Source of the DNA: a virus
Reading direction: 5' to 3' (one strand)
IMG/VR virus record: IMGVR_UViG_3300008625_001464
Coordinates: 1 to 64,000 of that record
DNA: 64,000 nucleotides
Shown here: positions 15,934 to 48,300 of the stretch, in pieces
Numbering within the stretch: position 1 is the stretch's first letter
How the letters are laid out: each line of letters starts with the position of its first letter
The notes under the pieces: model-generated
The model's input: only the letters and a program-made list of their open reading frames with translations
What the model was told of the DNA's origin: nothing
Database searches by the model: none
Position numbers and translations under genes: made by a program

Positions 15934-16428
15934 TTGAGTAACATAGTAGAACGAGCTAAACAATTTGCATTGGAACACCACAAGGGTCAAGTTCATGGTC
16001 CGAGACCTTTTTGGCACCACCTTAGAGATGTTGTGAATGTTTTGAAAGAATTCGGCGTGAAGGACGCAGATCTTCTTGCTGCTGCATGGCTTCACGACGT
16101 AGTTGAAGATACATCAGTTACTATAACTAAGGTTAAGACAGAATTTGGTGATCGGGTCGGTGTACTAGTTGATGCATTGACCGACGGTCCGGGAAAGACG
16201 AGAGCAGAAAAGAAAGCGAAGCCGTACCGCATGCTCCCTACAATTCCTGGTGCAACAACAGTGAAGGTAGCTGATCGAATCGCAAACGTCCGTTTTTCCC
16301 ATAAGCAGCACGCGCAACGTTATCTGACATGCTACAAGACAGAGCATCCAGGTTTTTTGAAAGCCCTGCGAGTGCAGGATGAGCTAAAAGAAATGTGGCA
16401 TCATTTAGACTCATTGCTGACCGATTAA
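15934..16428 (+). CDS. HD-domain hydrolase, SpoT/MESH1-like
   Basis: 164 residues, TTG start at 15934 preceded by GAGGGGTT. His29 (FWHHLRDV), HD at 54-55 (AWLHDVVEDT), ED at 58-59 and Asp114 (VKVADRIANV) match the metal and catalytic pattern of the (p)ppGpp hydrolase domain of SpoT and stand-alone MESH1. There is no synthetase domain. A likely role is degrading (p)ppGpp or a related nucleotide, which fits a stress-control theme with the PrkA/SpoVR locus downstream. A terminator follows. Confidence 0.82.
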   Translation: MSNIVERAKQFALEHHKGQVHGPRPFWHHLRDVVNVLKEFGVKDADLLAAAWLHDVVEDTSVTITKVKTEFGDRVGVLVDALTDGPGKTRAEKKAKPYRMLPTIPGATTVKVADRIANVRFSHKQHAQRYLTCYKTEHPGFLKALRVQDELKEMWHHLDSLLTD

Positions 16429-16643: not shown

Positions 16644-16979
16644 ATGAAAATAACAAAAAGACACCTTAGAAAGATTATTAAAGAAGCCATTAATGAGGCC
16701 CGTGAACCGATGACTCCGGATTATGTTTTTAATGCATTGACGAAGGGAAAAAGCGCTCGCACAGGGACGCCGTTCATCGATACAGCTATGGACGGACTCG
16801 CGACCGGTGATGGTCGCATAGTCGCCAATGCTATTATGGACGCGCTATGGGTTGATGATCCTCCCGTGGGTGCAGATAAAGAATTAGAAGGTCTCGTGCT
16901 TGACCTACCTCCCGACGCTGACGAATACGATCTAGCTGCCGTCGCAGCAGAGTGGGGAACCCGGCACTTCAGAGGCTAA
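16644..16979 (+). CDS. Leader-tagged protein 1
   Basis: 111 residues starting MKITKRHLRKIIKEAINEA. After the leader the protein is acidic and helical (GLATGDGRIVANAIMDALW ... LEGLVLDLPPDADEY). GAGGGA precedes the ATG. The leader contains the I-K-E tripeptide expected of a T4-type prohead protease site. The remainder is not recognised. Confidence 0.7.
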   Translation: MKITKRHLRKIIKEAINEAREPMTPDYVFNALTKGKSARTGTPFIDTAMDGLATGDGRIVANAIMDALWVDDPPVGADKELEGLVLDLPPDADEYDLAAVAAEWGTRHFRG

Positions 16980-17004
16980 AGACTTTATTTAGGAGAATAA
17001 TGTT

Positions 17005-17415
17005 ATGTTAGAACTATTACAAGCGTGCTGGAATTTAGTAGCAGGACTTGTTGCGTCTCTTTGGGGACTAGTGGTTACGGTATCGGTTTTAGTTGGTGAT
17101 GTTTTGCTACATCTTCATACCGACGCTCCTCGTCTTGAGGGGTTGGTGGTTGGTGTCACGCTAGCGTGGTTGCTTCTTCGCCGAGATCGTCATCCGGTAT
17201 TACGCGTCTTAAGTGCACCTTTGAAATTGGTGCTCGATGTTTTAGACCTCGCCTGGGATCAGGTTGTAGAAGTAGCAAGTGATGGTTGGAATATCATTAA
17301 CGGTTCCATTCGAGGAGCGGTAGGTTGGTGTTGGGGTAAGATTTCCAGCACTGGCTCATGGGTAATGAATAGATTACGTGCGCTCAAAGCACGATTAGAA
17401 AAAGCTGGAGAATAA
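17005..17415 (+). CDS. Membrane protein without the leader
   Basis: 136 residues, TAGGAGAATAATGTT start context. Two hydrophobic segments (WNLVAGLVASLWGLVVTVSVLVG and GLVVGVTLAWLLL), then an amphipathic helical domain rich in Trp and a basic C-terminus (RLRALKARLEKAGE). It sits between tagged proteins 1 and 2, so it may belong to the same particle. No family recognised; it could also be a holin-like protein. Confidence 0.65.
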   Translation: MLELLQACWNLVAGLVASLWGLVVTVSVLVGDVLLHLHTDAPRLEGLVVGVTLAWLLLRRDRHPVLRVLSAPLKLVLDVLDLAWDQVVEVASDGWNIINGSIRGAVGWCWGKISSTGSWVMNRLRALKARLEKAGE

Positions 17416-17416
17416 A

Positions 17417-17830
17417 ATGAAGATGTCCAAAAGACAATTAAGAAAAATTATTAGAGAAGTAGCTGCAGAGTCTGAACACGGTGACTTTTCAAAGAATTCC
17501 ATAATCCGAGCCGCCCGGCCGGAGATCAGCGGTTTCAGTCCTGACGGCAGCTCTGGCAGTTCTGGTTATCCTGGCCCTGCCGATTGGAAGTTGTATCCAC
17601 CAGAAACCATGGACGAAGCTGAAGGCTGGATCGCCGCTGCTATAGAGATGAACGATGGGTTGATGAAGGCTGAAGAAGCCCTTGAGAAAGGAGAGTTCTA
17701 CGAGGCGCGAGATGCTTTTGTTAAATATGTCTATCCTGTGCAGATAAAATTTGAAGAGCACGGTGCCGCAGATACCGAAGGTAGAAGGGTAGCTGCTTCG
17801 TGGCTGGAAGATAAAGGATTTAGATGGTAA
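17417..17830 (+). CDS. Leader-tagged protein 2
   Basis: 137 residues starting MKMSKRQLRKIIREVAAES. After the leader comes a flexible Ser/Gly/Pro stretch (DGSSGSSGYPGPAD), then a helical domain (AIEMNDGLMKAEEALEKGEFYEARDAF) reminiscent of a single TPR-like hairpin. ATG follows the preceding stop by one base. Confidence 0.72.
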   Translation: MKMSKRQLRKIIREVAAESEHGDFSKNSIIRAARPEISGFSPDGSSGSSGYPGPADWKLYPPETMDEAEGWIAAAIEMNDGLMKAEEALEKGEFYEARDAFVKYVYPVQIKFEEHGAADTEGRRVAASWLEDKGFRW

Positions 17831-17831
17831 A

Positions 17832-18290
17832 ATGAAAATTACAAAGAGACAGCTCAAAAGAATTATTAGAGAAGAAAAACGAAAAATGATGGATGAGTGT
17901 CCTGGTGATATGGACATGGGTCACTCCGCTGACGTCGTTGAAATTAGTCCAGAACCCGTTGAGTCTGATTCTGGGTTGATGGCAGAGACAACCTCTGCTG
18001 ACGGTGAGCTAGTTGTTGAAATGGAACTAGCAAGTAGGGCCCTCGAACAAGTTGTTGAGTCAGTCCAGAATGCTGCTCATCTATGCCCGGATTGTACCGG
18101 TCCAGTAGCTGCTCAAGCTCAGATAATGGAAGCAATGGTCGCACAGGCCGAAGCCCTCCAGGAGATGCTGGAGGCACAAGCTGGTCTTGTTGCAGAATCT
18201 GTTGAACTTGACTTTACAGGCGATGTCGGTGAGCTTCCTGGTGAAGATGCCTTCGCTATAGGTTACACAGCCGGCTCTCAAGGGTTATAA
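17832..18290 (+). CDS. Leader-tagged protein 3
   Basis: 152 residues starting MKITKRQLKRIIREEKRKMM. The rest is very acidic and Ala/Gln/Glu-rich (VVEMELASRALEQVVESVQN; MVAQAEALQEMLEAQAGL), predicted coiled coil, resembling scaffold or internal-protein composition. TAAAATG junction with the previous gene. Confidence 0.72.
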   Translation: MKITKRQLKRIIREEKRKMMDECPGDMDMGHSADVVEISPEPVESDSGLMAETTSADGELVVEMELASRALEQVVESVQNAAHLCPDCTGPVAAQAQIMEAMVAQAEALQEMLEAQAGLVAESVELDFTGDVGELPGEDAFAIGYTAGSQGL

Positions 18291-18295
18291 TACAA

Positions 18296-18829
18296 ATGAA
18301 GGTTACACGACAGCGCCTCAGACAGATCATCAAGGAAGAGCTTGGTTCAATCGTAACGGGTAGGGAAAAAGGGATGCAAGTTTCAGAGCACCCACCTGCA
18401 GGGACAACAGGTCTGGAGATTGGAGATGTCGTGTATCTTACACCTGAGGCATACGGTGATGCTGACCTACATAAGTTTGGTAGCGATTGGCCACCGATAA
18501 CAGTCACAGAACTTGGCAACGTCGAAGATCTCCACGGTACAACTGTACCTGCGAAAACAGACCCACCGTCTGACTGGGATTGGGTCGCTGGTGCAACCGG
18601 GCCTGGATTTGTTGGAGAGTATGAAGCTGCTCCAGGTCTTGGGAACCACGAAGATCTTGTTTTTCCGATGCATGCTATCGATTGGGAATACACAAAACGA
18701 GGACCCAAAGAACCGTGGAAGATGCCTCCGGGACCAGGAATGTACGTCGGCGGATCCGAGCAATGGGATAACGTTACAGAGTCATATTCATTGTTAGACG
18801 CGCTAGGGTTAAGGAAGACACCAAAATGA
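18296..18829 (+). CDS. Leader-tagged protein 4
   Basis: 177 residues starting MKVTRQRLRQIIKEELGSI. The body is different from its siblings: Pro/Gly/Trp-rich and apparently globular (GLEIGDVVYLTPEAYGD ... WDWVAGATGPGFVGEYEAAP). The GDVVYLTPEAYG part could be a beta-barrel. Overlaps the giant protein gene by 4 bp. Confidence 0.72.
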   Translation: MKVTRQRLRQIIKEELGSIVTGREKGMQVSEHPPAGTTGLEIGDVVYLTPEAYGDADLHKFGSDWPPITVTELGNVEDLHGTTVPAKTDPPSDWDWVAGATGPGFVGEYEAAPGLGNHEDLVFPMHAIDWEYTKRGPKEPWKMPPGPGMYVGGSEQWDNVTESYSLLDALGLRKTPK

Positions 18830-21657
18830 AAACGCAATTTTACGGTGCGGCGCTTACGCGGAGGCTGCAGGAAGAGCGGGAAACAATATTATTTGAATTA
18901 GCTAAGGAGAAGAAAAGCTTACGTCTTTTGTTCGAAGCTTCAGGTAATCCCCAGTTCGATGCGTTAGCTCTTCAATTAGAGCTGATCCAATTAAATGAGT
19001 TCATTCTACCTGAAAGTCGCCTTCTGGTTTCCTGTGGTCTGGATCTAAAGAGTAGAATTGTTGAGGGGACCGTCAGGGAAATTCAAGAATATTATGAGTT
19101 AACTGACGAAGAAGCCGAGGTACTACGCGAGGGATTTTGGGATGCTGTCCAGTCTGGAATTGGAAACTTTGCGGGTGGCGTTGATAAAGTTTTAAAGAAA
19201 GTTAAACTAAAGAAAGAGCCCGCGGGGTGGGACCAGGCACAAAAGATATTTCAAAAAGTTGCAGAAAAAGAAGGAAACCAAGTAGTCAAAGACCTTGTGA
19301 AAGCAATTGACGAGGAAGCCAGAGAGCTTGAATCAGGTCTCGGTTCTGGAAAGAACGACCTTACTTTTCCGTACAACAAGCATTCAAATGTGTTCCAGTC
19401 TGGTGTTAATACAATCGCTTCCGTTTACGACACCGTTGTCGACGCGACAGACAAAGATGCAGGTGCTGAGGGGTATCTCCCTGTTGAAGTAGCCAACGAG
19501 ATAATCGAGCAATTGCGGATTATTGTCAACAAATATATCGCTGATGTTGAACGAGAAAAAGGTGGGATGTACGTTTCTTTCGGAGGAACAGGCGAGGCTA
19601 TAGCAGACGAAAAAGCATTGCCAGCTCGAGAAGCCTACACCCGTTACGAAAGATTACTTCAAGAAGCAGAAGAGGGTGAAGCGCAGTTAGACCCAGAAGA
19701 GGAATACGAAAAGATTATGCGGGGTCAAGATTCCCCCACATTTAAGCGTATGTCTTCTATGAAGGCGCCTGTGATTATTGCTGGACTTGGTGTTTCGCTT
19801 GCCGCGCTGGGGTGGATGTCACAAATGCCCTGGTTCCAGGATCTTATTTTACGGATTCTAGGTCTAGAGAAACCTACAGGCCCAAAGATTGTAGATGAAA
19901 TCAAGGCCGCACCTCCCTTTCAGTTTTCGGGTGACTTAAAAAGCGGAGAAGGACTGACACAGTTTTTCGAAAGAGCCGTTGAAGGTGCTCCCGATCTCGG
20001 TCCGAATGCATCATCAGATAATTTTCTTAAAGTTGCTGAAAAGCTCGGCGGGGGTGATCTTGACAAGGGCCTAAAAAATATAGCATCTTTTACAGAGGGT
20101 GCAGGTGATCCTGGTGCTGCATACACCGCGCTAAAGGGTTTAGCAGATAGTGGCAAGTCAATGCCCATCGGAGAATTCTTCAAACAGGCAACAGAAATGT
20201 CTGGCACAGGTGGTACAATTTTTGCAGTCCACCCTGGTGAGAAGATAGCACAGGGTGTTGCAAAGAAAGTTGTTAAAGAGGTTGTTAAGGGTGGTGTAAA
20301 GTCTGCCGGCGGCGGTGGCGCCGCGGCGGCAGTAGCCACAATGACAGCTGCAGGACCTATTTTAGCCGGTATTGGTCTTGGTGCTGTTGTCGCCGGTGCA
20401 TCGTTAGCTGCGATCCGACAGCGGGCCAAGAAAAAATCTCGAATGGGAGTATTGAACGATTTGTTAGCTACGCTGAATTTGGTCGAACCAAAACCGGTGG
20501 ACCTACCTCCCCAGGAAGATGTAACGGTCCAGGTTGTGCTTACCAACCCCGAAGAGGGTGAGGTAGTCGAAGGTCGCAGATACAACAAGTATAGCCTCGT
20601 AAATGCCCTGTATGACCCCATGGACGAAGCGACGGTGGTGGCCATGGCTGGTCTTGAGGGTGACCCTGACTTAGAGAAGACAGGCGGAAAATTGAGTTTT
20701 ATGTTACCAAGCGTTGCTTTAACTGATCCCGCGCCGAAAGTAGCGGACATCGACGAAATTCCAGATGTCATTAAAGGAATTAATGCTAAGTTACCTGATT
20801 TAGATCTGGACGATCCGACGGTAAATGTAAAAGTTGTTGACAACAGAAAAGCAAAAAAGACGAAACCAGTTAAGCCTCCCGTTCCAGTTGTTCCTGACAA
20901 TATTGCAAAGGGAGAGCATGCAGTCTGCGTATTCACTGTAAAGGATGGTGCAGAGGTATGGAGAATCTTAAAGAAGGTAACGTATAGGAAATATGCTTCT
21001 GATGCGAAGAAATCCGGTGATAAGGATGCACCAAAGTTTGCTGATCGCTACAAGCGATATGACGATATTCTAGCCAGCCTAAGAGCCGACGGCGTGTTCG
21101 TTGATACTCCCGAGCTAGAGAAAGAGTTAACGCAAATTTCCAGTGGACCTCAGGGAGATCAGTACAAAGCAACCTACACCAGGACCCGAAAGAACAAGAA
21201 GACAGGTGAAACCACTCGCAAAAAGTCAGTGACAGGTGGGTACACAACAGCTGGAGAAGTTGCCTCAATCGGTGATATCAGGAAGAACATTAAGGGTGCA
21301 GGAAACAAGCGCCCCCGCGGGGTAGACAAGTACACAGTGATTTACCTTGTAGGAAATGATGTACTAAGTGCTGTTGAAAAAGCTGGAATGAGCAAGGACG
21401 AGGCAAAGAATATCATCATGGCAGCCCTGTCAAAATGGTCAAACGACGAAAAGCGTCCTAAGATGAAAGACCTCGGTGTAACAGACGACGCAGTAGCTGG
21501 CGTTTTACGGTCGGCTAGCCTTGCAGAAACCTATCAAATATCTACCGGCCGACAGAGAGTTATGGTGGTAGGTGTGAAACAATTCTCAAAGATCCTAAGA
21601 GAAAACCATGCCGCAAATGAATTGGGAAGGTGGCAAAAGTTAGCAGGGATCAGATGA
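18826..21657 (+). CDS. Large (943-residue) membrane-associated virion-type protein
   Basis: Starts MKTQFYGAALTRRLQEE with AAGGAAG upstream; it lacks the MKITKRQ leader but sits in the middle of the tagged cluster. Helical N-terminal 300 residues. One transmembrane segment follows at about 313-350 (APVIIAGLGVSLAALGW), then a second, glycine/alanine-rich one at about 495-530. A basic/mixed C-terminal half has Lys-rich linkers and ends NELGRWQKLAGIR. Size and membrane segments recall phage internal (ejected) virion proteins. That is inference; no domain was recognised. Confidence 0.72.
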   Translation: MKTQFYGAALTRRLQEERETILFELAKEKKSLRLLFEASGNPQFDALALQLELIQLNEFILPESRLLVSCGLDLKSRIVEGTVREIQEYYELTDEEAEVLREGFWDAVQSGIGNFAGGVDKVLKKVKLKKEPAGWDQAQKIFQKVAEKEGNQVVKDLVKAIDEEARELESGLGSGKNDLTFPYNKHSNVFQSGVNTIASVYDTVVDATDKDAGAEGYLPVEVANEIIEQLRIIVNKYIADVEREKGGMYVSFGGTGEAIADEKALPAREAYTRYERLLQEAEEGEAQLDPEEEYEKIMRGQDSPTFKRMSSMKAPVIIAGLGVSLAALGWMSQMPWFQDLILRILGLEKPTGPKIVDEIKAAPPFQFSGDLKSGEGLTQFFERAVEGAPDLGPNASSDNFLKVAEKLGGGDLDKGLKNIASFTEGAGDPGAAYTALKGLADSGKSMPIGEFFKQATEMSGTGGTIFAVHPGEKIAQGVAKKVVKEVVKGGVKSAGGGGAAAAVATMTAAGPILAGIGLGAVVAGASLAAIRQRAKKKSRMGVLNDLLATLNLVEPKPVDLPPQEDVTVQVVLTNPEEGEVVEGRRYNKYSLVNALYDPMDEATVVAMAGLEGDPDLEKTGGKLSFMLPSVALTDPAPKVADIDEIPDVIKGINAKLPDLDLDDPTVNVKVVDNRKAKKTKPVKPPVPVVPDNIAKGEHAVCVFTVKDGAEVWRILKKVTYRKYASDAKKSGDKDAPKFADRYKRYDDILASLRADGVFVDTPELEKELTQISSGPQGDQYKATYTRTRKNKKTGETTRKKSVTGGYTTAGEVASIGDIRKNIKGAGNKRPRGVDKYTVIYLVGNDVLSAVEKAGMSKDEAKNIIMAALSKWSNDEKRPKMKDLGVTDDAVAGVLRSASLAETYQISTGRQRVMVVGVKQFSKILRENHAANELGRWQKLAGIR

Positions 21658-21986
21658 AAATCACAAGGCGACAGCTAAGAAGAATAATCAAAGAGCAGAT
21701 GTCAAACCCACAGGTTGGGTTTAAGCCGCTGGAGTCTTTCCAGATCCCATATCGCAATTATGGGTATGAGGGTCGTAGGATCATTGATCGAGATCGAGCG
21801 TGGCTTGAATTTGTTCCAAAGGGTTCACCACCAAAGACTCAAGAAGACATGTTTAGAACAGTAACACTTTTAGATAGCGATGATCCAGAAATAGGGCTCG
21901 CTATGGCAACTGTGCACGCTCCGAAGTCTGCCGGTCCGGTGGAAAGCTATGACGTTTACAGCGTATACGCTACCACTACAGGATAA
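21654..21986 (+). CDS. Leader-tagged protein 5
   Basis: 110 residues from ATG 21654 (ATGA overlap), MKITRRQLRRIIKEQMSN, then a small beta-rich domain (YRNYGYEGRRIIDRDRAWLE ... YDVYSVYATT). No acidic coiled coil here, showing that the leader is attached to different folds. Confidence 0.72.
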   Translation: MKITRRQLRRIIKEQMSNPQVGFKPLESFQIPYRNYGYEGRRIIDRDRAWLEFVPKGSPPKTQEDMFRTVTLLDSDDPEIGLAMATVHAPKSAGPVESYDVYSVYATTTG

Positions 21987-21989
21987 ATA

Positions 21990-22289
21990 ATGAAAATTAC
22001 TCGCCGCCAGCTTAGAAGAATTATTAGGGAAGCGATCCACGATCCTGGTGATGATGCGCTTATCGATACCCTTATATTTGGGTGGGAACAGTCGGGCATC
22101 GCCGATCCAGATCTCCCCCCCCAGCGGAAAGGAGACGCAGCTCTGGCATGGGTTTCTAAGAATGAGCCAGATATTGCACGTCAAATTAACGCACTTTCTA
22201 CTCATAAGCTAAAAGCCTTGTACAGCGCGGCATTTGACGAAGATGCAGACCGCGGTCATAAAACAAGCGCGATGGACTGGAATAGATAA
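21990..22289 (+). CDS. Leader-tagged protein 6
   Basis: 99 residues, MKITRRQLRRIIREAIHDPG, then a helical body (DALIDTLIFGWEQSGI ... QINALSTHKLKALYSAAF). The first 25 nt of coding DNA are almost identical to those of tagged protein 7, a recent copying signal. Confidence 0.72.
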   Translation: MKITRRQLRRIIREAIHDPGDDALIDTLIFGWEQSGIADPDLPPQRKGDAALAWVSKNEPDIARQINALSTHKLKALYSAAFDEDADRGHKTSAMDWNR

Positions 22290-22666
22290 TGAAAATTACT
22301 CGCCGCCAGCTTAGACAGATAATTCGAGAGTCTATCTTGGAAGAGAGGAAAGGCGCATCAGCATCTGATATCGCTCGTTTCAAACCACAGCTTATTGAGT
22401 GGACAGAGATTCTAATCGATGAATTGGCTGAGGCGGTACCTACTATGAAAGAGATGAGTGAGAAGGCTCGGACAAATATGGTGCGAAGCCTTGCTGACAA
22501 AGTTTCTGTTGAGCTAACTGGCTTGACAAGCGGCATGAGTTATTCTTCGCAGAAGCGAATTGAAAAAAGAGCTGAGGATAAAGCTCATCAGAAATGGGAC
22601 AGAGACCGAAGAGCTCGAGCGTCAAATGTACGTTATTATGGTGAGTGGGAAGGATTTTCAGGGTAA
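22289..22666 (+). CDS. Leader-tagged protein 7
   Basis: 125 residues, MKITRRQLRQIIRESILEE, then a helical, Lys/Arg/Glu-rich body (SEKARTNMVRSLADKVSVEL ... KRIEKRAEDKAHQKWDRDR). Its ATG overlaps the preceding TAA by one base. Basic C-terminus may contact DNA. Confidence 0.72.
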   Translation: MKITRRQLRQIIRESILEERKGASASDIARFKPQLIEWTEILIDELAEAVPTMKEMSEKARTNMVRSLADKVSVELTGLTSGMSYSSQKRIEKRAEDKAHQKWDRDRRARASNVRYYGEWEGFSG

Positions 22667-22667
22667 A

Positions 22668-22946
22668 ATGAAGATTACAAAAAATCAGATTAGAAGAATT
22701 CTCAAAGAAACCATGTACAATTTGTGGGCAAATTACAGTCCTGAATCGATCAAGGCAGCCGAGGCGGCCTTAAATATTTTAGGCCATGACCCGAACGTTC
22801 GCGGTGCAGAAGTTGAAAATGAAATTCACAATTATCTAGAGAATACCCTTGGCATGAGCTCATCAAGCGATGAAATTTTTGCTATCGGTGATGAAGCAAT
22901 GGAAGCAGCAGAAGTGATGCTTGGTCTTCCGAAGGATACGCTCTAA
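22668..22946 (+). CDS. Leader-tagged protein 8
   Basis: 92 residues from ATG 22668, MKITKNQIRRILKETMYNLW; the leader has Ile/Leu exchanges but keeps the L-K-E site. The rest is acidic and helical (SIKAAEAALNILGHDPN ... EAMEAAEVMLGLPK). Confidence 0.7.
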   Translation: MKITKNQIRRILKETMYNLWANYSPESIKAAEAALNILGHDPNVRGAEVENEIHNYLENTLGMSSSSDEIFAIGDEAMEAAEVMLGLPKDTL

Positions 22947-23242
22947 TGAAAATTACCACTAGACAGCTTAGAAGTCTCATCCGCGAAGTTCTTATTAAAG
23001 AACAAGTTGTCGGCTATACAGCTCCAGAAGAAAAAGGGGATGATGACGATGGTGGTGGATACTTAGATGTGGGTGATATGGGAGTTGACATCTCTCAATC
23101 GTCTGAGGAAGGAACGCAAGCATCAGGACAAGCAGTGAAGAGTCTAACGCAGCAGCGACAACAAGATCTAGATACTGGTGATGTCGAGGCAGCCGAATCA
23201 GATGAACAACAACTGTCAGCAGCTCAAAAGATGAGAGGATAA
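22946..23242 (+). CDS. Leader-tagged protein 9
   Basis: 98 residues, MKITTRQLRSLIREVLIKEQ, followed by an intrinsically disordered, acidic and Gln/Ser-rich body (EEKGDDDDGGGYLD ... SLTQQRQQDLDTGD). TAATG junction with the previous gene. Confidence 0.7.
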   Translation: MKITTRQLRSLIREVLIKEQVVGYTAPEEKGDDDDGGGYLDVGDMGVDISQSSEEGTQASGQAVKSLTQQRQQDLDTGDVEAAESDEQQLSAAQKMRG

Positions 23243-23243
23243 A

Positions 23244-23867
23244 ATGAAAGTTACAAAAAGACAACTATTAAAGATTATACGCGAAGAGGCCGAAGCGTCA
23301 GACGAAGCCGGCTCGGTAACTGTCACCACTGAAACTGATGAAGTTGATGAAAATGACGAACAAATGAAGCACGATGATGATGGGGATGTCACGGAATCTT
23401 TTCGTAGAGAGCTGCGACGTATCGTAAGAAAAGAATATCGACGAGGAATCCGTGAGGGCCGGACCGGGCACGCTGTGGGGACTGGCTTTGCAGGATGGAG
23501 ACCGTCGAGTCGTCCCAATTTTGCAACATCATATTCCAGCGAAGCAAAATACGCGGATTCGAGATATCAGACTCATCCCAAGTATAAAACAGGTGAGCTG
23601 GATACGCTGGCTGAGGTACAGGGGTGGACTTCCGAATATACGTTGGAGAGTAACGAGAGTGGTGCTTTGAGAACAAAGGCTCGTATCGATCACGGCTCTG
23701 TTGTTGTAGAGTTCGGACATTCAATGACTTTAAGACTAGACGCTGACGATACTTTTGCGCTATCTAAATTACTACAGGACGCCGCGAGCAGACTCGCCAT
23801 CGACGAACGAGAATACATCACATTACGTGATCCGCAAGCAGGCGGTCTCACAGAGGAAGACTACTAG
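23244..23867 (+). CDS. Leader-tagged protein 10, with internal leader-like motif
   Basis: 207 residues, MKVTKRQLLKIIREEAEAS, then an acidic segment, and at about residues 52-72 a second basic motif (RRELRRIVRKEYRRGIREG) that echoes the leader. The C-terminal 110 residues look like a compact domain (VEFGHSMTLRLDADDTFALS). If the leader is a protease tag, the internal copy would give a second cut between acidic spacer and domain. Confidence 0.72.
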   Translation: MKVTKRQLLKIIREEAEASDEAGSVTVTTETDEVDENDEQMKHDDDGDVTESFRRELRRIVRKEYRRGIREGRTGHAVGTGFAGWRPSSRPNFATSYSSEAKYADSRYQTHPKYKTGELDTLAEVQGWTSEYTLESNESGALRTKARIDHGSVVVEFGHSMTLRLDADDTFALSKLLQDAASRLAIDEREYITLRDPQAGGLTEEDY

Positions 23868-23870
23868 AGC

Positions 23871-24011
23871 ATGGCGAACCCACTTAAAAAAATCCGTGAC
23901 TGGATGGAATGGAGGGGTCTTACACCCAAAGATGCCCTTGGTGCCTTAGTTCCAATGGCTTTCCTGGTTGGAATAACGCTATTGTTTTTATGGGGAGCGT
24001 GGCAGGCATGA
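23871..24011 (+). CDS. 46-residue membrane protein
   Basis: Amphipathic N-terminus (NPLKKIRDWMEWRG) and one transmembrane helix (LVPMAFLVGITLLFLWGAW). Its stop overlaps the ATG of the next (lipoprotein) gene by 4 bp. A small anchored peptide paired with a lipoprotein could be an envelope-spanning pair, but the lipoprotein is short, so this is only a suggestion. Confidence 0.55.
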   Translation: MANPLKKIRDWMEWRGLTPKDALGALVPMAFLVGITLLFLWGAWQA

Positions 24012-24205
24012 ACCATACGGCACCATTGGTGGGAATTCTTTTGATGGCTGGTTGCCCAAAGAAAATCGAAGAAGAAAAACCGGTGCATATTTGGCCTACT
24101 GACCCGATTAGACTAGAGCTGCCAGAAGAAGATTATGATCTAGAAGATTTACCAGAAGCTGGAGAAGATACCGGCGCTAAGGAAGAAAGCAATGAAATTC
24201 ACTAA
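24008..24205 (+). CDS. Small acidic lipoprotein
   Basis: 65 residues from ATG 24008. PLVGILLMAGCPKK gives a lipobox at Cys16 (M-A-G-C). The mature part is acidic and Pro-rich (LELPEEDYDLEDLPEAGED), probably extended. It overlaps the next tagged gene by 14 bp. Confidence 0.62.
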   Translation: MNHTAPLVGILLMAGCPKKIEEEKPVHIWPTDPIRLELPEEDYDLEDLPEAGEDTGAKEESNEIH

Positions 24206-24887
24206 GCGACAAATTTTAAGAATTATACATGAAGAAGTTAAAGGTCTCGAAGATCTTGAAGGCGTTGATAGCATTGAGGGTATCGAATCACCAGTTGACG
24301 TCGAAGCAGTTGAAGATGCCTGGGCTGGTGGCGAGAACATAGTCGAGCCCATGGACCATTCAGAAGCGGGTGGTGGTGAAAAAGAACCAACCACAGGAGT
24401 TGAGGTCCAAGAAATAGTCGAACGTGTTGCTCGTAAACTACGAATCAAGCGGCTTATTAAAGAAATTGATTGGGTTGATCCTATGGCATTCTTACCAGAC
24501 GCAGAAGCAACAGAACAAGCTTGGGCTGCAGGAGATAGACTTTCACTCATGATCGATCAGCCGGGTCTAGTTGGCGAAGAAGAACCAGCAGAGGAGAGCG
24601 AAGAAGAAATTTCTGAACGGATTCTTCGAAAGGTACGACTTAAGAAATTAGTGCGGGAAGCAGAAGAAGAAGCTGCTCCAGCTAATCCTGAAGCGAAGAC
24701 AACAGCAGGGAAAAAAGCTGGTAAAGCCCTCGATAAAAGTGGCGTTCAACCTTTACTAATCGCGATTGATGAAGCAGGATCAGAGGCAGCAGTGGAAGAA
24801 ATATTGACTCAACTAATCGGTCAGCTTTCAGATGATGGGAAAAAGTATCTTAAGAAAGCAATGTCAGATATTATTCGAGCACAATAA
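24192..24887 (+). CDS. Leader-tagged protein 11 with tandem internal duplication
   Basis: 231 residues, MKFTKRQILRIIHEEVKGL. Two tandem units of about 55 residues follow. Each runs from an acidic 'EA-E-AWA-G' start (AVEDAWAGGEN; ATEQAWAAGDR) to a basic, leader-like end (VARKLRIKRLIKE; ILRKVRLKKLVRE). So the leader-like basic motif occurs three times, about 60-80 residues apart. The C-terminal 65 residues are helical (SGVQPLLIAIDEAGSEAAVEE). Consistent with a polyprotein-like precursor cut at each I/V-x-E site; inference only. Confidence 0.75.
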   Translation: MKFTKRQILRIIHEEVKGLEDLEGVDSIEGIESPVDVEAVEDAWAGGENIVEPMDHSEAGGGEKEPTTGVEVQEIVERVARKLRIKRLIKEIDWVDPMAFLPDAEATEQAWAAGDRLSLMIDQPGLVGEEEPAEESEEEISERILRKVRLKKLVREAEEEAAPANPEAKTTAGKKAGKALDKSGVQPLLIAIDEAGSEAAVEEILTQLIGQLSDDGKKYLKKAMSDIIRAQ

Positions 24888-25492: not shown

Positions 25493-25741
25493 ATGATCGG
25501 ACCATTCGACGCTGCTCGTGAGGATGCTTTAAAGTTTATTTGTGGGATGCAAACGTTTTCAACATTTCAAGCTATTGCCGACCGGCTTGCGTTGTTAGAT
25601 GCGTTGACAAACATGTCACTTATAAAATCTGGAACGCTTGTAGAATATGAAACCGTTTTAAATCAGCACAACGCCGAGATTAAAGAAATAGAGAGCGTCA
25701 TTGCAGTATTTTGCTCTCTCCCCGATGCACCTCAAGCTTGA
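25493..25741 (+). CDS. Helical hypothetical protein
   Basis: 82 residues from ATG 25493, one base after the preceding stop (TAAAATG, the same junction type as in the tagged cluster). Earlier in-frame starts at 25433 and 25442 overlap the previous gene. Helical (DALKFICGMQTFSTFQAIADR ... LNQHNAEIKEIESVIAVF). Converges and overlaps by 10 bp with the minus-strand lipoprotein gene. Confidence 0.58.
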   Translation: MIGPFDAAREDALKFICGMQTFSTFQAIADRLALLDALTNMSLIKSGTLVEYETVLNQHNAEIKEIESVIAVFCSLPDAPQA

Positions 25742-26643
25742 GAGTCGATACCGTAGGTAACCTCTACTAAGGCACCCGGATCAGGTGCAGTTGTAAAGAA
25801 AACAGTGTTTATCTGCTGATCGTAGTCCCACGCACTTTCAGCGATCTGGGCCTCGTCTATGAATACTGTGATTGTCTCTATAACAGGAGTGAATGTTAAT
25901 TCGATTTCTTCAATCGGTTCGTAAGCCTTACTAGCTTCCTCTACGCCGGGAGTCCAGTCATCATCGCATATATCAACTTCGACTCCATTAAAATCTCTTG
26001 CTAATTCAAGGTAAGCTTCCCCCACTTGGTCAGCGCAAGAACTTTCATCTAACCCAACGATTGATGCGACATATACCCTAGATCGGATGCTAGTTATCCA
26101 ATCAGCAAATGTTGCTGCTGTCCAGCTAAATGACTGTTCATCTTCGTCTGAAACAAACACAACTAGTAAAGCAGCTGTATTACGCATCCAGGTAGATGAG
26201 TACGCACCTAGCTCCATGTAAGAATGAACTGCTTCGAAACCGGCTTCGCCCCAAGAGCTATAACCAGTGCCAAGTGCGTTTAATGCGTCGGTTGCGTCGA
26301 CGATATCATCACCAGGCACGAGTGGAAACGTTGAATTAGAAAGCGCTTCATCAGGATCTGCGCTGATTATTCCCAATCGCCAAGATGTTGTTATTGGCAA
26401 ACTTGTTAACATTTCTTCCAGTCCCAACAAAAGCTGCGTGTCATGATTATTCATACTTCCAGATCGATCAATAACCCATAGGATATCGTACCCGTCTGTT
26501 TCATCTGGCTGAATAAATGAGTCGACCCACAGCTGTGGATACGTCTCAACGGGTACCTCATATGTTAGTATATTATCAGATGTGCACCCAAGCCCACTAA
26601 GCAAAGTTGTGGCTAAGAGAAGTAAAAATGTAAAGCCCCTCAT
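25732..26643 (-). CDS. VWA-domain lipoprotein
   Basis: 303 residues, minus strand, with AGGAGGAAG before the ATG. Signal peptide with Cys20 (LSGLGC; Gly at -3 is not ideal). The VWA domain begins DILWVIDRSGSMNNHD (MIDAS Asp59-x-Ser61-x-Ser63), continues through LGIISADPDE and VVFVSDEDEQS, and the last 80 residues form a beta-rich domain (EIELTFTPVIETITVFID). This looks like surface VWA lipoproteins of predatory and fruiting delta-type bacteria, i.e. a host-derived gene. Possible roles are adhesion, receptor masking or superinfection exclusion. Confidence 0.82.
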   Translation of the reverse strand: MRGFTFLLLLATTLLSGLGCTSDNILTYEVPVETYPQLWVDSFIQPDETDGYDILWVIDRSGSMNNHDTQLLLGLEEMLTSLPITTSWRLGIISADPDEALSNSTFPLVPGDDIVDATDALNALGTGYSSWGEAGFEAVHSYMELGAYSSTWMRNTAALLVVFVSDEDEQSFSWTAATFADWITSIRSRVYVASIVGLDESSCADQVGEAYLELARDFNGVEVDICDDDWTPGVEEASKAYEPIEEIELTFTPVIETITVFIDEAQIAESAWDYDQQINTVFFTTAPDPGALVEVTYGIDSQA

Positions 26644-42349: not shown

Positions 42350-45300
42350 ATGGCAAAAGACTTTCGCACAAATCAGATTAGAACCTCAACGATCATCGGT
42401 TCCGGATCGCTCAGCACAGCAACACCATCAGGTCATCAGGTTGGGTTAGTAATATGTAGCGGCTCGGGCGCATCGGATTTCGATGGAGGATATGTAGACC
42501 CCAATATACTCAAGTTCGTAGGCGATGATGTCTGGATGGTCGTTAGTGGTACAGCTGACCATACTTCGTATATGGCAGAACAAAAACCTGCTGGTGGGTC
42601 TGTCTTGTTCCTGGGTGACGTCGTAGTTAGCGGAACGCTGTGGGCTGAAAGAAGCGTCATCGAAGTTGACAACCAAGTTATCGGTGACATGATGGTACCG
42701 AACGCGTTGGTGGCCGGCACCGAACCTGAGGATCTAGCGGGTGGGGTAGCAGCCAAACTTCTTGTCGATCCGTTCACAACGAACGCAGGAGGAACTGGAA
42801 CGCAGGATGGTACAGTATCGTTCAATATCGTTACAGCGCCCGGCGCTGGTGTCGCTTGGAGATACGACGGCACATTAAAGACAGACGTTTTCTTCCACGT
42901 TTCAGGTAGCCGTGACGTAAGGAATACTAACAATAGGGGTCTTGCACTGTTCGACGGTGACGTGCACGTCTCAGGTAACTTCAGTGTCGATGAAGGCGGT
43001 ACCTTCACCACAGACATTATTCTCGATAACGATACGACCGCCCCTCCTGTCATAAAGCATGCTAAGGATTACGGCGGCAGTGGTGAGGTGGTCTATAGCG
43101 AGTACGCGATTAGAAACGTGGACTCCGGTCCGAGCTGGTGGCATCTCGACATTGTACACTCTGGAGCGAATGCTTCTCCCAGCGGCATAGACTCTGGCAT
43201 AAGACTGAAGGTAAACGACGGTGCTACAGATCTTGCAGATCGATCGGCATTCGTTGTATCAGCATCAGGTGATATTGCCATTGACCCAGGGAAAGAGATA
43301 AGGTTCGCTGGCAGAAGCGGCGGGTATGGACCACATATCGAATATAATGTGCCAGATAGTTCCTCACCGACCAATTACGCCAATGGGCAACTTGCCTTTA
43401 AGCATTATTATTCATCACTTGACACCCCAACATCATTCAACTTTACGGGTGGTGTAGTAACAGCGTCGAATGGAATTTACTTACCTGATGCGGATACATT
43501 TGGAGGTGATTATATCGCCTCGGCCCGAGGGCAAACTCGGGGAATTATGTTCGCGGGTAGCTCTGGAGACGACGGTGATGGAGTCGGCCCAGGCGATGCA
43601 GGGATATATTACAACGAAGATAACCTAGTAAATGAAGTCTTGGGCGGAACTTATAACACTCTGTGCATGGTCGCGTCGAATACCGGCTCCAACATCCATA
43701 TCGAAGCTGGAAATTATTTAACCTTACGTGCCGGAACGCGCGCTGAGCCGGGTGATATCGAGATCAGTGGTTCGAATGACATGTGGCTCAGGGCCCTCGG
43801 GTCACTTAGGGCAGATGTTGAAACAAATATACTCATGGTTCCGCAAGGTTACACAACTTTTGCGGGGGATCTTGCCGCTGTTCCTACCCCACAAGGTGAC
43901 GTCAAGTTCTTTGTTTCAGGTGCGGTTGGTGGAAAACATGGGGGATCAAGAAGCATAGCGCTATTCGGTGGGGACCTTGTCACGAGTGGAGTCCTTTATG
44001 TTGATGGTACCACAGGCGACGGCGGCGCTCCTGTTTACGGTGGTTCTGCTCTGGTCCTGCGTGGGGGTATTACATGGGATATGAGCGGATCGACGGATCC
44101 CGATGGAGATTCCTGGATATGGGAAAATAGTGACGATCTCTTTGTGAAGGGGAGAGACCACCTCTATCTTCATGCTTCAGGTACTGCTGGTTCTGGTACC
44201 GTAACAGTGTCTGGATCGGTTGCTGATGTCTATGCCGCGGCGGGTAGTGCTACGGTAAGCGGTTCTAATCAAGTTATCCTCCTCGCTGGTAATGATGTAC
44301 TCTCTACAGCGGCCGATGACCATGTGTTCATAAGCGGTGAAACGGCATTCTTTGCAGGTGACGACAAGTCGGTTCCTGTCGCTGCTAGCGATGTTCACTT
44401 CTTAGTCTCTGGCTCGCTAAATACAAGACATACCTCAACGAGGGGTACAGCATTATTCACCGGTGATCTTGTCACGAGTGGAGTCCTTTATGCTGACGGT
44501 GCTATCACTGATGGTGGCGCACCTGGATATGGTGGATCCAGTTTGGTCCTCCGTAACGGAATCGCATGGGATGTATCGGGTTCTGCTGGAGACAATGGTC
44601 AAGCCTGGTTGTGGGAATTTGGCGATGTTCTTTACTTGAAGGGCAAAGATGGTGTAACTCTCCACGCATCTGGTACAGACGGTTCTGGAACAGCAAATAT
44701 AAGCGGATCAATTGTCAATGTTTATGCAGGCGCAGGGAGTGCTACTTTAAGCTCATCTCTAGATACCTTCATCAAGTCTGGCGATGATATTGTACTGTCG
44801 GCATCTGACAAGATCTTCATGTATCCCGAAGGCGGAAAGATCTACGCGGCAGAGAATACAGCTGTTGGCTACAATCAGTGCACAATTGATTTAACAGTTC
44901 CTGCCTTCCAACTGAGAGCCTCAGACTCAGATTATTTCCAGATTGATGTGGGCGCTGATGGTAGCACCATATTCACTACGGTGGATGGAGACGCCAATGC
45001 GGCGAACTTGACCATGAACGTCGATGGTGCCGTTGACATAAACGCAGTGAGTAATGTGACACTTGACGTTTCGGCCGGCCCTATCTCAATCGGAACTACT
45101 GCAGTTGCGCAACAAATAACAATCGGTGGAGACACCAGCACCCGGACCGAGATTGAGCTGAACGCGATAGCTATAGACGTTAATGCCGGAAGCGGCGGTG
45201 TAGACATCGGAGCGGGTGGTGACATAACGTTAAGCGGCTCCGGCGATCTGGAGCTAATCGGAACCACCGGCGTTACGATTCGGGGTGATGTATCACTAAC

Positions 45301-48300
45301 AGACAACCTAACTGTATTTGGTGATTTCATTAAGGGTCACGTCATATCAGCATCGATCCAGGATCCAGTTCTTCTATTGAACTCTGGATCACTCACCAGT
45401 AATTCTGGTGGTGGTATCGCCATTGCATCTGGATCAAACATCGCCAATGTAGCATTAGTGTTTGGACGTGATGTAAGCAATAACAATTCCTTTCTGGCTG
45501 GTCGATTAGATGTCCAAGACGGTGATGAGATAGATTTCACCGGAGCAGTTCCGGTGGATCTCAGAGCGGCGGGTCTACGAATAAGAAACATGCTATTCGT
45601 AACTTCGAGTCATGGTAGCGGTGGTGGTAACTTCGATATTGATGTTAATAACCCTACCGATGGGAAGCTTACAGTCTATACAGGCGATGGCAGCTTACTT
45701 CTTTCATCGTCGGGTGGTAACGCTGCTCTTGAATCTAGCGGTGGAACAGCTAGTCTAAGCGCTTCTGCAGACACGAACGTCGTCGCGGGGCAAGACGTTA
45801 AGATTAAGTCGACAAGAGCCGTAAGAGTTATGGGTAACGAGGCCGGGAACAGCCACCCGTCGCTTAAGCCTGACATCGCATTCTACGTTTCTGGAGCAAT
45901 CGGCTCTCAAGGTGGGGCAACAAGAGGCACCTCGGTTTTCGGTGGGGATCTTGTCATCAGTGGAAACACTCACACAGAAAACATCTACGCTGGGGAGTAC
46001 ATCTACCACAGAGATGATGACGATACGTTTATAAGACTCCAGGGCGACGACGTCATGGTTAACGTAGGCGGAACTACTTTCATAAAGATGTCCGAGCTTG
46101 CGGCTGCACAAGACAAGGTCGTTATAAACGGTGGTCAGAGTGATATAGACTTTAGAGTCGCTTCGGTAAATCGGTCTGGGGCATTGCTCGTCGACGCAGC
46201 CGCGGATCAGGTCCTTATATTATCTGGCGGTGGAGACTCTTCTGCTAACGAGGCGAATTATTCTGACACCGCGTTCTTTGTCTCTGGTAGTGTGGGCTCT
46301 AAGGACGGCGGTAGCAAAGGCGCGGCGCTGTTCGGCGGAGATCTCGCTACCAGCGGTGCGCTCTATATCATGGGTAGCGTATCCGACGGGGCTGGTGATG
46401 CAAGCTTAGTGCTTTCAAATGGAATCACTTGGAACCTCGACTCAAGTGGTGTCGGTGACGCGTGGATATACGAAGATTCCAACGATCTTTTTGTGAAGGG
46501 TCGCGACGATCTATACCTCCACGCATCAGGTGCTGCTGGCTCTCTTGGGACAATGCAACTCTCTGGCTCTGTGGTGAATATATTTGCTGGCGCTGGCGAC
46601 GTTGCAGTCAGCGGATCTGACGATATTTCATTGCAGGCTGGCGATTATATGTTCACAACAGTCGCTCAGGCGGCGCTCTTTAACGGAGGCGGCAGAACAG
46701 GTTTTGACGCGGTGGGCTCAGATACGGTCTTCTTTGTTTCGGGCGCGATTGGTTCGAAAGATGGGACGACAAGAGGGACGACAGTCGTCGGTGGAGACCT
46801 GGTCGTTTCGGGCGCAATATCTCTCCTGACAGATATCTCGCTAGGCGACGGTGTGGACCTTGCCCTAGACGCTGGTGATAAATTTTACTTCAACGGTCTT
46901 AGCGGTGATCAATTTATTACTGGAGACGGCACCACTCTTACGATCGATGGTGATGACACCGTCACAGTGGACTACGATGTCGACACTAATTTCCAGCGCG
47001 GTGGTGTCGCACAGCTCACCATGGGCAGCTCAGGCTTTGTATGGAACGAAGATGGACTGGCGGGGACCGCTGTAGACTTTAGGGTAGAGTCGAACACAAG
47101 AGAAGGTGCAATATTCATTGACGCTTCTGAAGATCAAGTGCTTATTTTGTCTGGTGGGGGTGACTCATCAGATAATGAAGCCTCCTATACTGATACTGCG
47201 TTCTTTGTCTCCGGTAGTGTTGGGTCGAAGGGCGGTGGAAGCAAGGGCGCGGCCCTCTTCGGAGGAGATCTTGTTCTTAGTGGAAATCTACACGCGGCCG
47301 AATACATCTATCATGATGGAGACGATGACACTTTCCTAAGACTCCAGGCTGACAATATCATTGCGAATGTGGGTGGCTTGCAATTCTTGAAGATGAAGGA
47401 AGCAAGTCAGGATGAATTCGTCATTAACGAGGGCGCAAATGATATAGATTTCCGAGTTCAATCATCCAACCTCCAGGGAATGTTACTGTTAGATGCTGCC
47501 GAGGACCAGCTTCTGCTTGGTACAAATTCCACCGATGCAAGTGGTGAAAGTCTTGGCACTGATACGAATATATTCATATCAGGATCGATCGATTCTATGG
47601 ATTCCACGACAAAGGGAACCGCGGTATTCGGTGGAGACCTCTATGTATCAGGTACAGCCAACCTACAAGCAGTGCAGCTTGGTAACCTTACTCTCACAAA
47701 CACAAACGCATATCTCAGATTCTATGACACGGATCATTACGTAAGAAAGAATGGCACGAATGTAGAATTTAGAGACTCGGCTGGAGGAACCACTTACACA
47801 CTCACTCAGCTTGCAGCACTTTCCGTCACGGACAACACAGATGTATTCTCCATCACTCATGGTGTGCCGTCATACGTCGTTACGACTGGGTCGTTCTCCT
47901 TCGACACAGATGGGAGGCCCACCAACTACACACCCGGTGCGGGGGGGCCAGGAGCCGACACATATTTCTTCATAAGCGGCTCGAAGGGTGTGAAAGATAC
48001 CGCCACTCGGGGGGCTGCTGTCTTTGGTGGCGATACACTTACATCTGGAACGATATATCTCGGTAAGCAATCCGCTGATGATGCGCCTTCGACAGTCACA
48101 GCTAACGCAATCGCACTCTACGCTTCTGCTAGCGCAGGTGTTACTCAACTCTACTTTAGAAACTCAGTGACCGAAACAAAGATCGGTTCAGGCGGCAGCC
48201 TTGACGACGCGTATGACACCCCCGCGGGCGGAGGGTCGCCAAGTACGGGTGCCGGCGCAGTTATAACAGTCGATGGACAACCAGTTCAGTTTGTTAATAC

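Follow-up and report, generated by a model that had tools for sequence, protein, structure and literature searches.

Eleven genes between positions 16644 and 24887 of a 64,000-nucleotide stretch of viral DNA (positions 1 to 64,000 of the IMG/VR record IMGVR_UViG_3300008625_001464, which whole stretch we call the window) begin with one and the same short leader and continue into proteins that are unrelated to each other. We judge it likely that this leader is a capsid-targeting propeptide of the phage T4 type which has been expanded into a general cargo system, and that its carriers are packaged into the phage head and cleaved there. The features from which we argue can be read directly: the leader itself, the gene of a prohead protease, the cut-site motifs, the exchange of leaders on related bodies and a looser version of the leader in the head module.

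We propose that the basic, probably helical N-terminal 14–27 residues or so would bind a core or scaffold component while the prohead core is formed, and that this binding would draw the respective protein into the prohead. The S77 protease would then cut after the Glu of an I/L-x-E motif, namely at Glu14 when residue 15 is Ala, Ser or Thr, while other leaders would often be cut at a second L-x-E around residues 18–27. The freed body would remain in the head together with the DNA and would probably be ejected into the host at infection. Delivery and a function early in infection are the least supported part of this proposal and are suggested by the precedent of T4.

The leader genes of the window

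When the regular expression for the leader was applied to every position on both strands of the window, it matched exactly the eleven listed starts, all of which are ATG codons. Evaluated at Met codons, it gave 11 matches in the real window and none in 100 dinucleotide-block shuffles and 100 codon shuffles. The common leader that the first-pass annotation had noticed on these genes is thus real; the strict consensus given there for all eleven holds for ten and fails for the protein at 22946 (MKITTRQLRSLIRE), which has T at position 5. The ATG starts of 16644, 21654 and 22668 are inferred from the leader itself because the longest open reading frames (ORFs) begin farther upstream, at TTG or GTG.

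The bodies of the eleven proteins (residue 23 onward) gave no mutual BLASTP matches at E ≤ 0.05, as expected from the earlier description of them as different. Ten of them are acidic with isoelectric points (pI) of 4.1–5.0, the remaining one having a pI of 7.9. Scans of window proteins against PHROGs and Pfam (10 proteins in each scan) yielded nothing above noise and no convincing family.

The protease and the head module

The record from which the window was taken comprises 98,649 bp and is contained at 99.98% in a longer record, IMGVR_UViG_3300007770_001284, of 254,743 bp. A prohead protease, for which a search of the rest of the genome had been proposed, is indeed encoded in this near-identical longer record. 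The S77 (T4 gp21-type) gene lies at 144949–145575 (match at 145039–145461, E 2.3e-25), its score against the Peptidase_S77 profile (PF03420) being 86.4 bits with a curated cut-off of 27, and a gp23-type capsid protein is found at 149802 (E 1.4e-66). Both genes are located outside the contained 98,649-bp record. Together with a terminase-like gene at 140492, a portal-like gene at 142121 and an acidic scaffold-like gene at 148008, which were named from gene order and sequence with no family search, they are arranged in a T4-like order (terminase-like, portal-like, S77, scaffold-like, gp23). The counterparts of gp21 H85 and S140, which we take to be catalytic residues, are conserved without exception in T4 and in the 22 recovered proteases; the alignment covers 22 of 26 S77 loci, the other four not having been recovered by the motif.

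A gene of about 135–153 residues that follows the protease by one or two genes starts like MAKVSRSTLKTLVKECLFEILLE then A. This leader-like motif is present in 19 of the 26 S77 loci searched, a count for which the motif, written for that start, was itself the search term; the motif is looser in the group with smaller genomes, and several of the loci nearly duplicate each other. The class-1 score, that is the score for the leader of the window, reaches this head-module gene in 5 of 7 large genomes. A T4-like late promoter was looked for by eye before the head and leader genes and none was seen.

We also compared leader-bearing records with control viral records chosen by an arbitrary 14-mer. 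Among the leader-bearing records of 20 kb or more, 31 of 67 contain S77 (24/50 + 7/17), as do 19 of the 21 that reach 100 kb, versus 7 of 55 controls overall and 2 of 6 controls of at least 100 kb (p 7e-5 and 0.011, respectively). These p-values are too small since the rows are related (G014/G045, G024/G046 and G003/G048, for instance, look near-identical), and the counts omit records below 20 kb and include S77-positive controls that were unscreened for leaders. The search for gp23 covered 50 of the 67 records and gave 21 matches, 20 of them over the cut-off.

The end of the leader as a probable cut site

The leader ends in I-I-[KR]-E, often followed by Ala or Ser or by a second L-x-E nearby. 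In the major capsid protein (MCP) all 22 rows, from 20 leader-bearing records, read [VIL]-L-[RK]-E-[SAQ] where the site FLTE|A of T4 gp23 aligns, and by analogy these capsid proteins would be cut at the aligned motif. With position 14 left unscored, 483 of 512 leaders still proved to have Glu at it; Asp (3) and Gln (7) are rare. Since Glu14 was part of the pattern by which the loci had been retrieved, we also considered the 303 leaders outside this pattern, and 274 of them have Glu14.

Where Glu14 is missing, another [LI]xE stands at residues 15–26 in 21 of 29 leaders, versus 42 of 150 leaders with Glu14 and a residue other than Glu at position 15 (p 1e-5). Of the 150 leaders in which the residue after Glu14 (P1′) is not Glu, 103 have Ala or Ser there. 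A second [LIVMF]2-x-E at residues 15–34 is present in 109 of 211 leaders with Glu15 versus 12 of 79 without it, with the rows of this comparison and of the leader logo chosen by regular expression and the logo including ORFs cut by locus ends. The second-site Glu of the Glu15 leaders is mostly located at residues 18–27. Among 296 cluster representatives the motif [LIVMF]2-x-E falls into residues 15–35 of 127 proteins versus 21 and 38 in two intervals farther downstream, and its P1′ residue is S, A, Q or G in 66 of 130 cases near the leader versus 33 of 159 deeper in the bodies. Such a pattern of replacement and second sites would be expected if selection maintained one good cut.

The first-pass annotation had read the leader as removable and ending in I/L-x-E. 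Its interpretation is supported in part: targeting and cleavage gain strong support at the sequence level from the S77 protease, the motif in the capsid protein, the constraint on Glu together with its compensation, the swapping of leaders and the leader of the head module, and delivery at infection would follow the precedent of T4. A cut that always falls at Glu14 is probably incorrect, as about half of the Glu15 leaders have a second site.

A second leader class and leader exchange

In the phage of the window we noticed a second class of leader, M-x-LLREYI[RK]E-[LIM]-[LI]-x-E (LLREYIRELLxE). When the final Glu was left free in a scan, 44 distinct N-terminal cases were obtained, some of them near-duplicates, and 42 of these have Glu at this position; two further cases with probable GTG starts were excluded. 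Some S77 proteases themselves have N termini similar to this class-2 leader (MSKKLLREYYELC).

The two classes can replace each other on related proteins. The body of the 22946 protein carries the class-2-like leader MNPLRLFIREILKE (then Q) in another phage and MRVTEYRLRNVIREILRE in a third one, and the alignment of these relatives resumes at ...E|QVVGYT, i.e., at the Glu boundary. The start of an HD-type protein, recognized by eye, varies between phages: it is class-1-like in one of them and class-2-like in two, and two more lack any obvious leader. In the phage with the class-1-like start, this protein continues into a relative of the 22289 body, and a leader-like motif marks the point of fusion; the relation to 22289 was established through a shared relative (G024:196853).

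Two further proteins of one large genome (G001) were seen alongside these cases. A Zeta-toxin/AAA_33 kinase-like protein on the minus strand (L021:5912-6793, corresponding to G001 225912-226793) has a class-1 leader and then a class-2-like leader, and a PolyA_pol-type nucleotidyltransferase (L021:11296-12933, G001 231296-232933) has a class-2-like leader. The N-terminal region of the latter is extra, since the listed isolate matches begin only at residues 155–189.

Occurrence of the leader

An exact codon pattern of the leader recovered at least 119 stretches in IMG/VR, and a looser regular expression applied to 118 of the listed loci gave at least 419 distinct leader ORFs with a median length of 110 residues; the IMG/VR totals are lower bounds. 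With a position-specific score we counted 17 leader ORFs in G001, 30 in G009, 20 in G024, 6 in G013, 11 in G049, 27 in G007 and 13 in G045, and when each of these seven large genomes was shuffled once, no ORF reached the threshold. The 254,743-bp record has 17 ORFs with leader-like starts by this score and its shuffled copy 0. The leader pattern read backwards was absent from 23 records.

Whether the leader also occurs in non-phage genomes, a point raised in the first-pass annotation, was checked in GTDB, where the exact pattern was found in 8 stretches on 5 contigs from 4 metagenome-assembled genomes (MAGs). S77 is encoded on one of these contigs as well (305,838 bp). A second contig has the same length as an IMG/VR record and shows no difference from it in the 7,318 bases compared, and the remaining three are short and undecided. 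With at least two of the five contigs being phage, the leader is at least mainly a phage feature. In the MAG UBA6535 (DJKT01000043, L275:1381-1422; G054:C55:12522-12563) the leader DNA matches two leaders of the window's phage without a difference over 42 bases, and this bacterial MAG may therefore contain pieces of a close relative. A query with a 20-residue consensus against the isolate collection gave no match; low-complexity filtering may be the cause, and this result is therefore no evidence of absence.

The bodies behind the leaders

Clustering of the 468 bodies gave 311 clusters, of which 246 are singletons; one cluster of 53 bodies was formed by single linkage and may be bridged. A Pfam scan of the 150 longest of 310 cluster representatives found 12 families with one or two proteins each, namely AAA_33, HD_4, RNase_T, Zeta_toxin, HNH (two models), DNA_pol_B_exo1, tRNA_lig_CPD, RMF, Peptidase_M78 and EF-hand (two models). 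The PHROGs matched comprise 36 families, again with one or two proteins each among the 25 listed. Among 37 class-2 proteins we found PolyA_pol with its RNA-binding domain, RNase_T, Rv2179c-like and DUF2608 matches. These enzyme and regulator families suit a takeover of nucleic acid metabolism and translation better than scaffolding, most bodies having no recognized family.

Comparison with known systems

A capsid-targeting sequence (CTS) is described that directs the T4 internal proteins into the head, where gp21 cuts after L/I-X-E and gp23 loses 65 residues; many T4 internal proteins and Alt are ejected, IPI inhibits host restriction, the internal proteins are described as basic, and the CTS has been suggested to let T4-like phages incorporate various proteins (PMC9026906). 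IPII and IPIII begin with MKTYQEFIAE|A. The system proposed here resembles that of IPI–III and Alt in having a short N-terminal propeptide on otherwise different proteins, an L/I-x-E end, a phage with S77 and gp23, and the same motif in the major capsid protein. It differs in its own leader sequence, in often having two candidate sites up to residue 27, in its second class and in the acidic bodies of the window. The likeness is thus one of layout: neither homology of the leader to the T4 CTS nor basic small proteins were found. The scale is different as well, T4 having three internal proteins plus Alt and the leader phages 6–30 class-1 leader ORFs in each of the seven genomes.

The T4 propeptide MAKINELLRE|S of gp24, reported as a head protein with a short propeptide (PMC5694885), ends in LLRE|S, the motif of many MCPs of the leader phages; gp24 is, however, a vertex shell protein and not cargo. 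From the same source, the heads of SPN3US and phiKZ offer a diverged gp21-type protease and two diverged paralogous head proteins, gp53 and gp54, that share their first 15 residues (PMC5694885). There the two proteins are paralogs and the motif is a different one, A-X-E or S-X-E. Most SPN3US propeptides are reported to be 111–254 residues long with only gp45 and gp225 being short (PMC10052503). The Moraphages are comparable in that they, too, are described as large phages from aquatic habitats whose core genes include those of a prohead core protease and a major capsid protein; the main text of that paper does not contain the term 'N-terminal' (PMC12619734).

In the titles, abstracts and passages of the open PMC literature that we searched, we found no description of the leader, its scale, the second class or the swapping. 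Within this literature these appear to be new, the principle of capsid targeting being already known.

Flavobacterium phage immuto, an isolate related by its capsid protein, was scanned over 150 of its 160 kb. Three of its proteins with unrelated bodies (L427:1803-2318, L429:3806-4354 and L429:18632-18931) share a leader of their own, MEN(T)FDLKKFLVEN[KR]LTxNS, which contains L-V-E (FDLKKFLVE|N); one of the three genes lies just before the terminase gene.

Interpretation and alternative explanations

Several observations weigh against a packaged and cleaved cargo set. Packaging and cleavage are deductions from sequence, and the leader has no similarity to the T4 CTS beyond MK...I-x-E. No match to the class-1 pattern was found at up to 3 mismatches in T4 or in RM378, immuto and Mel-JY01, which are those of the closest isolates by capsid protein that were searched. 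P1′ is Glu in 346 of 512 leaders, unlike the MCP site, and 59 of 211 Glu15 leaders lack any [LI]xE at residues 16–36; moreover, the link between Glu15 and a second site could partly reflect leader subfamilies. The bodies in the window are mostly acidic, compared to the basic T4 internal proteins, and one leader body matches a tape-measure family (E 2.7e-4). S77 is a necessary condition for the proposal, and its association with the leader may only mark a phage clade or shared ancestry; 36 of the 67 leader records, many of them fragments, show no S77, and in two leader-bearing MAGs (G051, G054) S77 gave no match. The helical moment of the leader is only modestly above that of shuffled sequences and weakly distinctive: the real value is reached by 2.4% of shuffles for the class-1 core, 7.8% for a 22-residue class-1 consensus and 1.2% for class 2, compared to 11.7% for T4 IPIII and 50% for the head-module gene.

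The proteins might instead be tagged for assembly of the prohead core only, acting as extra scaffold or core that fills and shapes a large head and being degraded or retained afterwards and not delivered as effectors. The acidity of many window bodies, the looser leader on a conserved gene near the protease and the internal leader-like motifs of the 24192 and 23244 proteins, which would be chopped like scaffold, all favor this explanation. We nevertheless regard it as unlikely, given the high diversity of the bodies (468 in 311 clusters) and the minority that match AAA_33, HD_4, RNase_T, Zeta_toxin, HNH, RMF and PolyA_pol, which a scaffold would not need. A basic helix could also bind acidic partners, and the leader might be a docking peptide for some other phage structure, such as a replication site, the membrane, RNA polymerase or an internal compartment, with I/L-x-E not being a cut site; the frequent Glu at P1′ would agree with this, cleavage being argued from sequence. 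This seems quite improbable to us, in view of the retention of Glu14 inside and outside the fetch pattern with Asp and Gln rare, its usual replacement nearby when lost, the common end motif of two leader classes that exchange on one body, and the same motif at the aligned maturation site of the MCP. The identical first 27 nucleotides of 21990 and 22289 would be expected of a DNA-level cassette, i.e., a recombination or expression signal of recently duplicated genes whose peptide has no function. In the leaders of four genomes, however, the third codon position is about twice as divergent as the first two, and 33–50% of the same-residue codon pairs use different codons; therefore it is the leader peptide, not the DNA, that is kept. 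The eleven window bodies are also unrelated, and we rejected the cassette idea on the codon data as highly improbable.

Going beyond the capsid-targeting propeptide as such, we tentatively suggest that a widespread lineage of large gp23/S77 phages may possess a general system for import into the head, in which two or more labels are interchangeable and by which tens of proteins per virion could be packaged and injected, some of them as multi-leader fusions cut in the prohead. The cargo might include enzymes acting on RNA or nucleotides, with proteins of the tRNA-end/poly(A) polymerase, exonuclease, kinase/Zeta and HD types and ribosome modulation factor as candidates. In large environmental phages the majority of genes lack an assigned role; should the leader act as a label for import into the head, a large set of orphan proteins could be sorted as virion-carried without any need for homology, and the label would also predict where the mature protein starts. 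The label alone would then identify by sequence hundreds of unknown effectors of the first minutes of infection, the long-open question of which proteins phages inject besides DNA would become testable across uncultured viruses, and new import tags for loading phage heads would be at hand.

Gene content of the leader region

All genes of the cluster are on the plus strand. Leader protein 1 (111 residues, 16644–16979) has the leader MKITKRHLRKIIKE then A at 16644–16685 and matches no family better than E 0.05. Proteins 2 (137 residues, 17417–17830; MKMSKRQLRKIIRE then V at 17417–17458) and 3 (152 residues, 17832–18290; MKITKRQLKRIIRE then E at 17832–17873) come after a gene without leader, the latter with a possible second site MMDE|C at residue 22. 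Protein 4 (177 residues, 18296–18829) starts with MKVTRQRLRQIIKE then E. A row of shorter proteins comprises protein 5 (110 residues, 21654–21986; MKITRRQLRRIIKE then Q), protein 6 (99 residues, 21990–22289; MKITRRQLRRIIRE then A), protein 7 (125 residues, 22289–22666; MKITRRQLRQIIRE then S), whose body recurs in other phages, protein 8 (92 residues, 22668–22946; MKITKNQIRRILKE then T) and protein 9 (98 residues, 22946–23242; MKITTRQLRSLIREVLIKE then Q). Protein 10 (207 residues, 23244–23867) has the leader MKVTKRQLLKIIRE then E and an internal leader-like ELRRIVRKEYRRGIRE then G, and protein 11 (231 residues, 24192–24887) has MKFTKRQILRIIHE then E and two internal leader-like motifs, LRIKRLIKE and LRKVRLKKLVRE then A. 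The repetition of the motif inside these last two proteins looks as if they were destined for cutting into pieces.

The membrane proteins, the lipoprotein and the 943-residue protein which the first-pass annotation had placed among the leader genes are all present, the membrane and lipobox types being assigned by eye. The 136-residue membrane-type protein at 17005–17415, between leader genes, lacks the leader and has weak PHROG matches only, the best (E 0.024) to a family of unknown function. Also without leader are a 46-residue single-span membrane-type protein (23871–24011) and a 65-residue protein with a lipobox-like N terminus, LLMAGC (24008–24205). The 943-residue protein at 18826–21657 has no class-1 leader, and LLFE|AS at residue 37 is a possible cut site. 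It matched no family, and in a search of close relatives and seven genomes its sole homolog was the copy of the same phage.

Directly upstream of the cluster, the window encodes at 15934–16428 an HD-hydrolase-like protein, by eye, which has no leader and no BLAST match among the leader proteins. A lipoprotein-like protein with a VWA-like DRSGSM motif, also seen by eye, lies on the minus strand at 25732–26643. Farther downstream, two very long ORFs of 2148 and 1811 residues are adjacent at 42350–48796 and 48796–54231.

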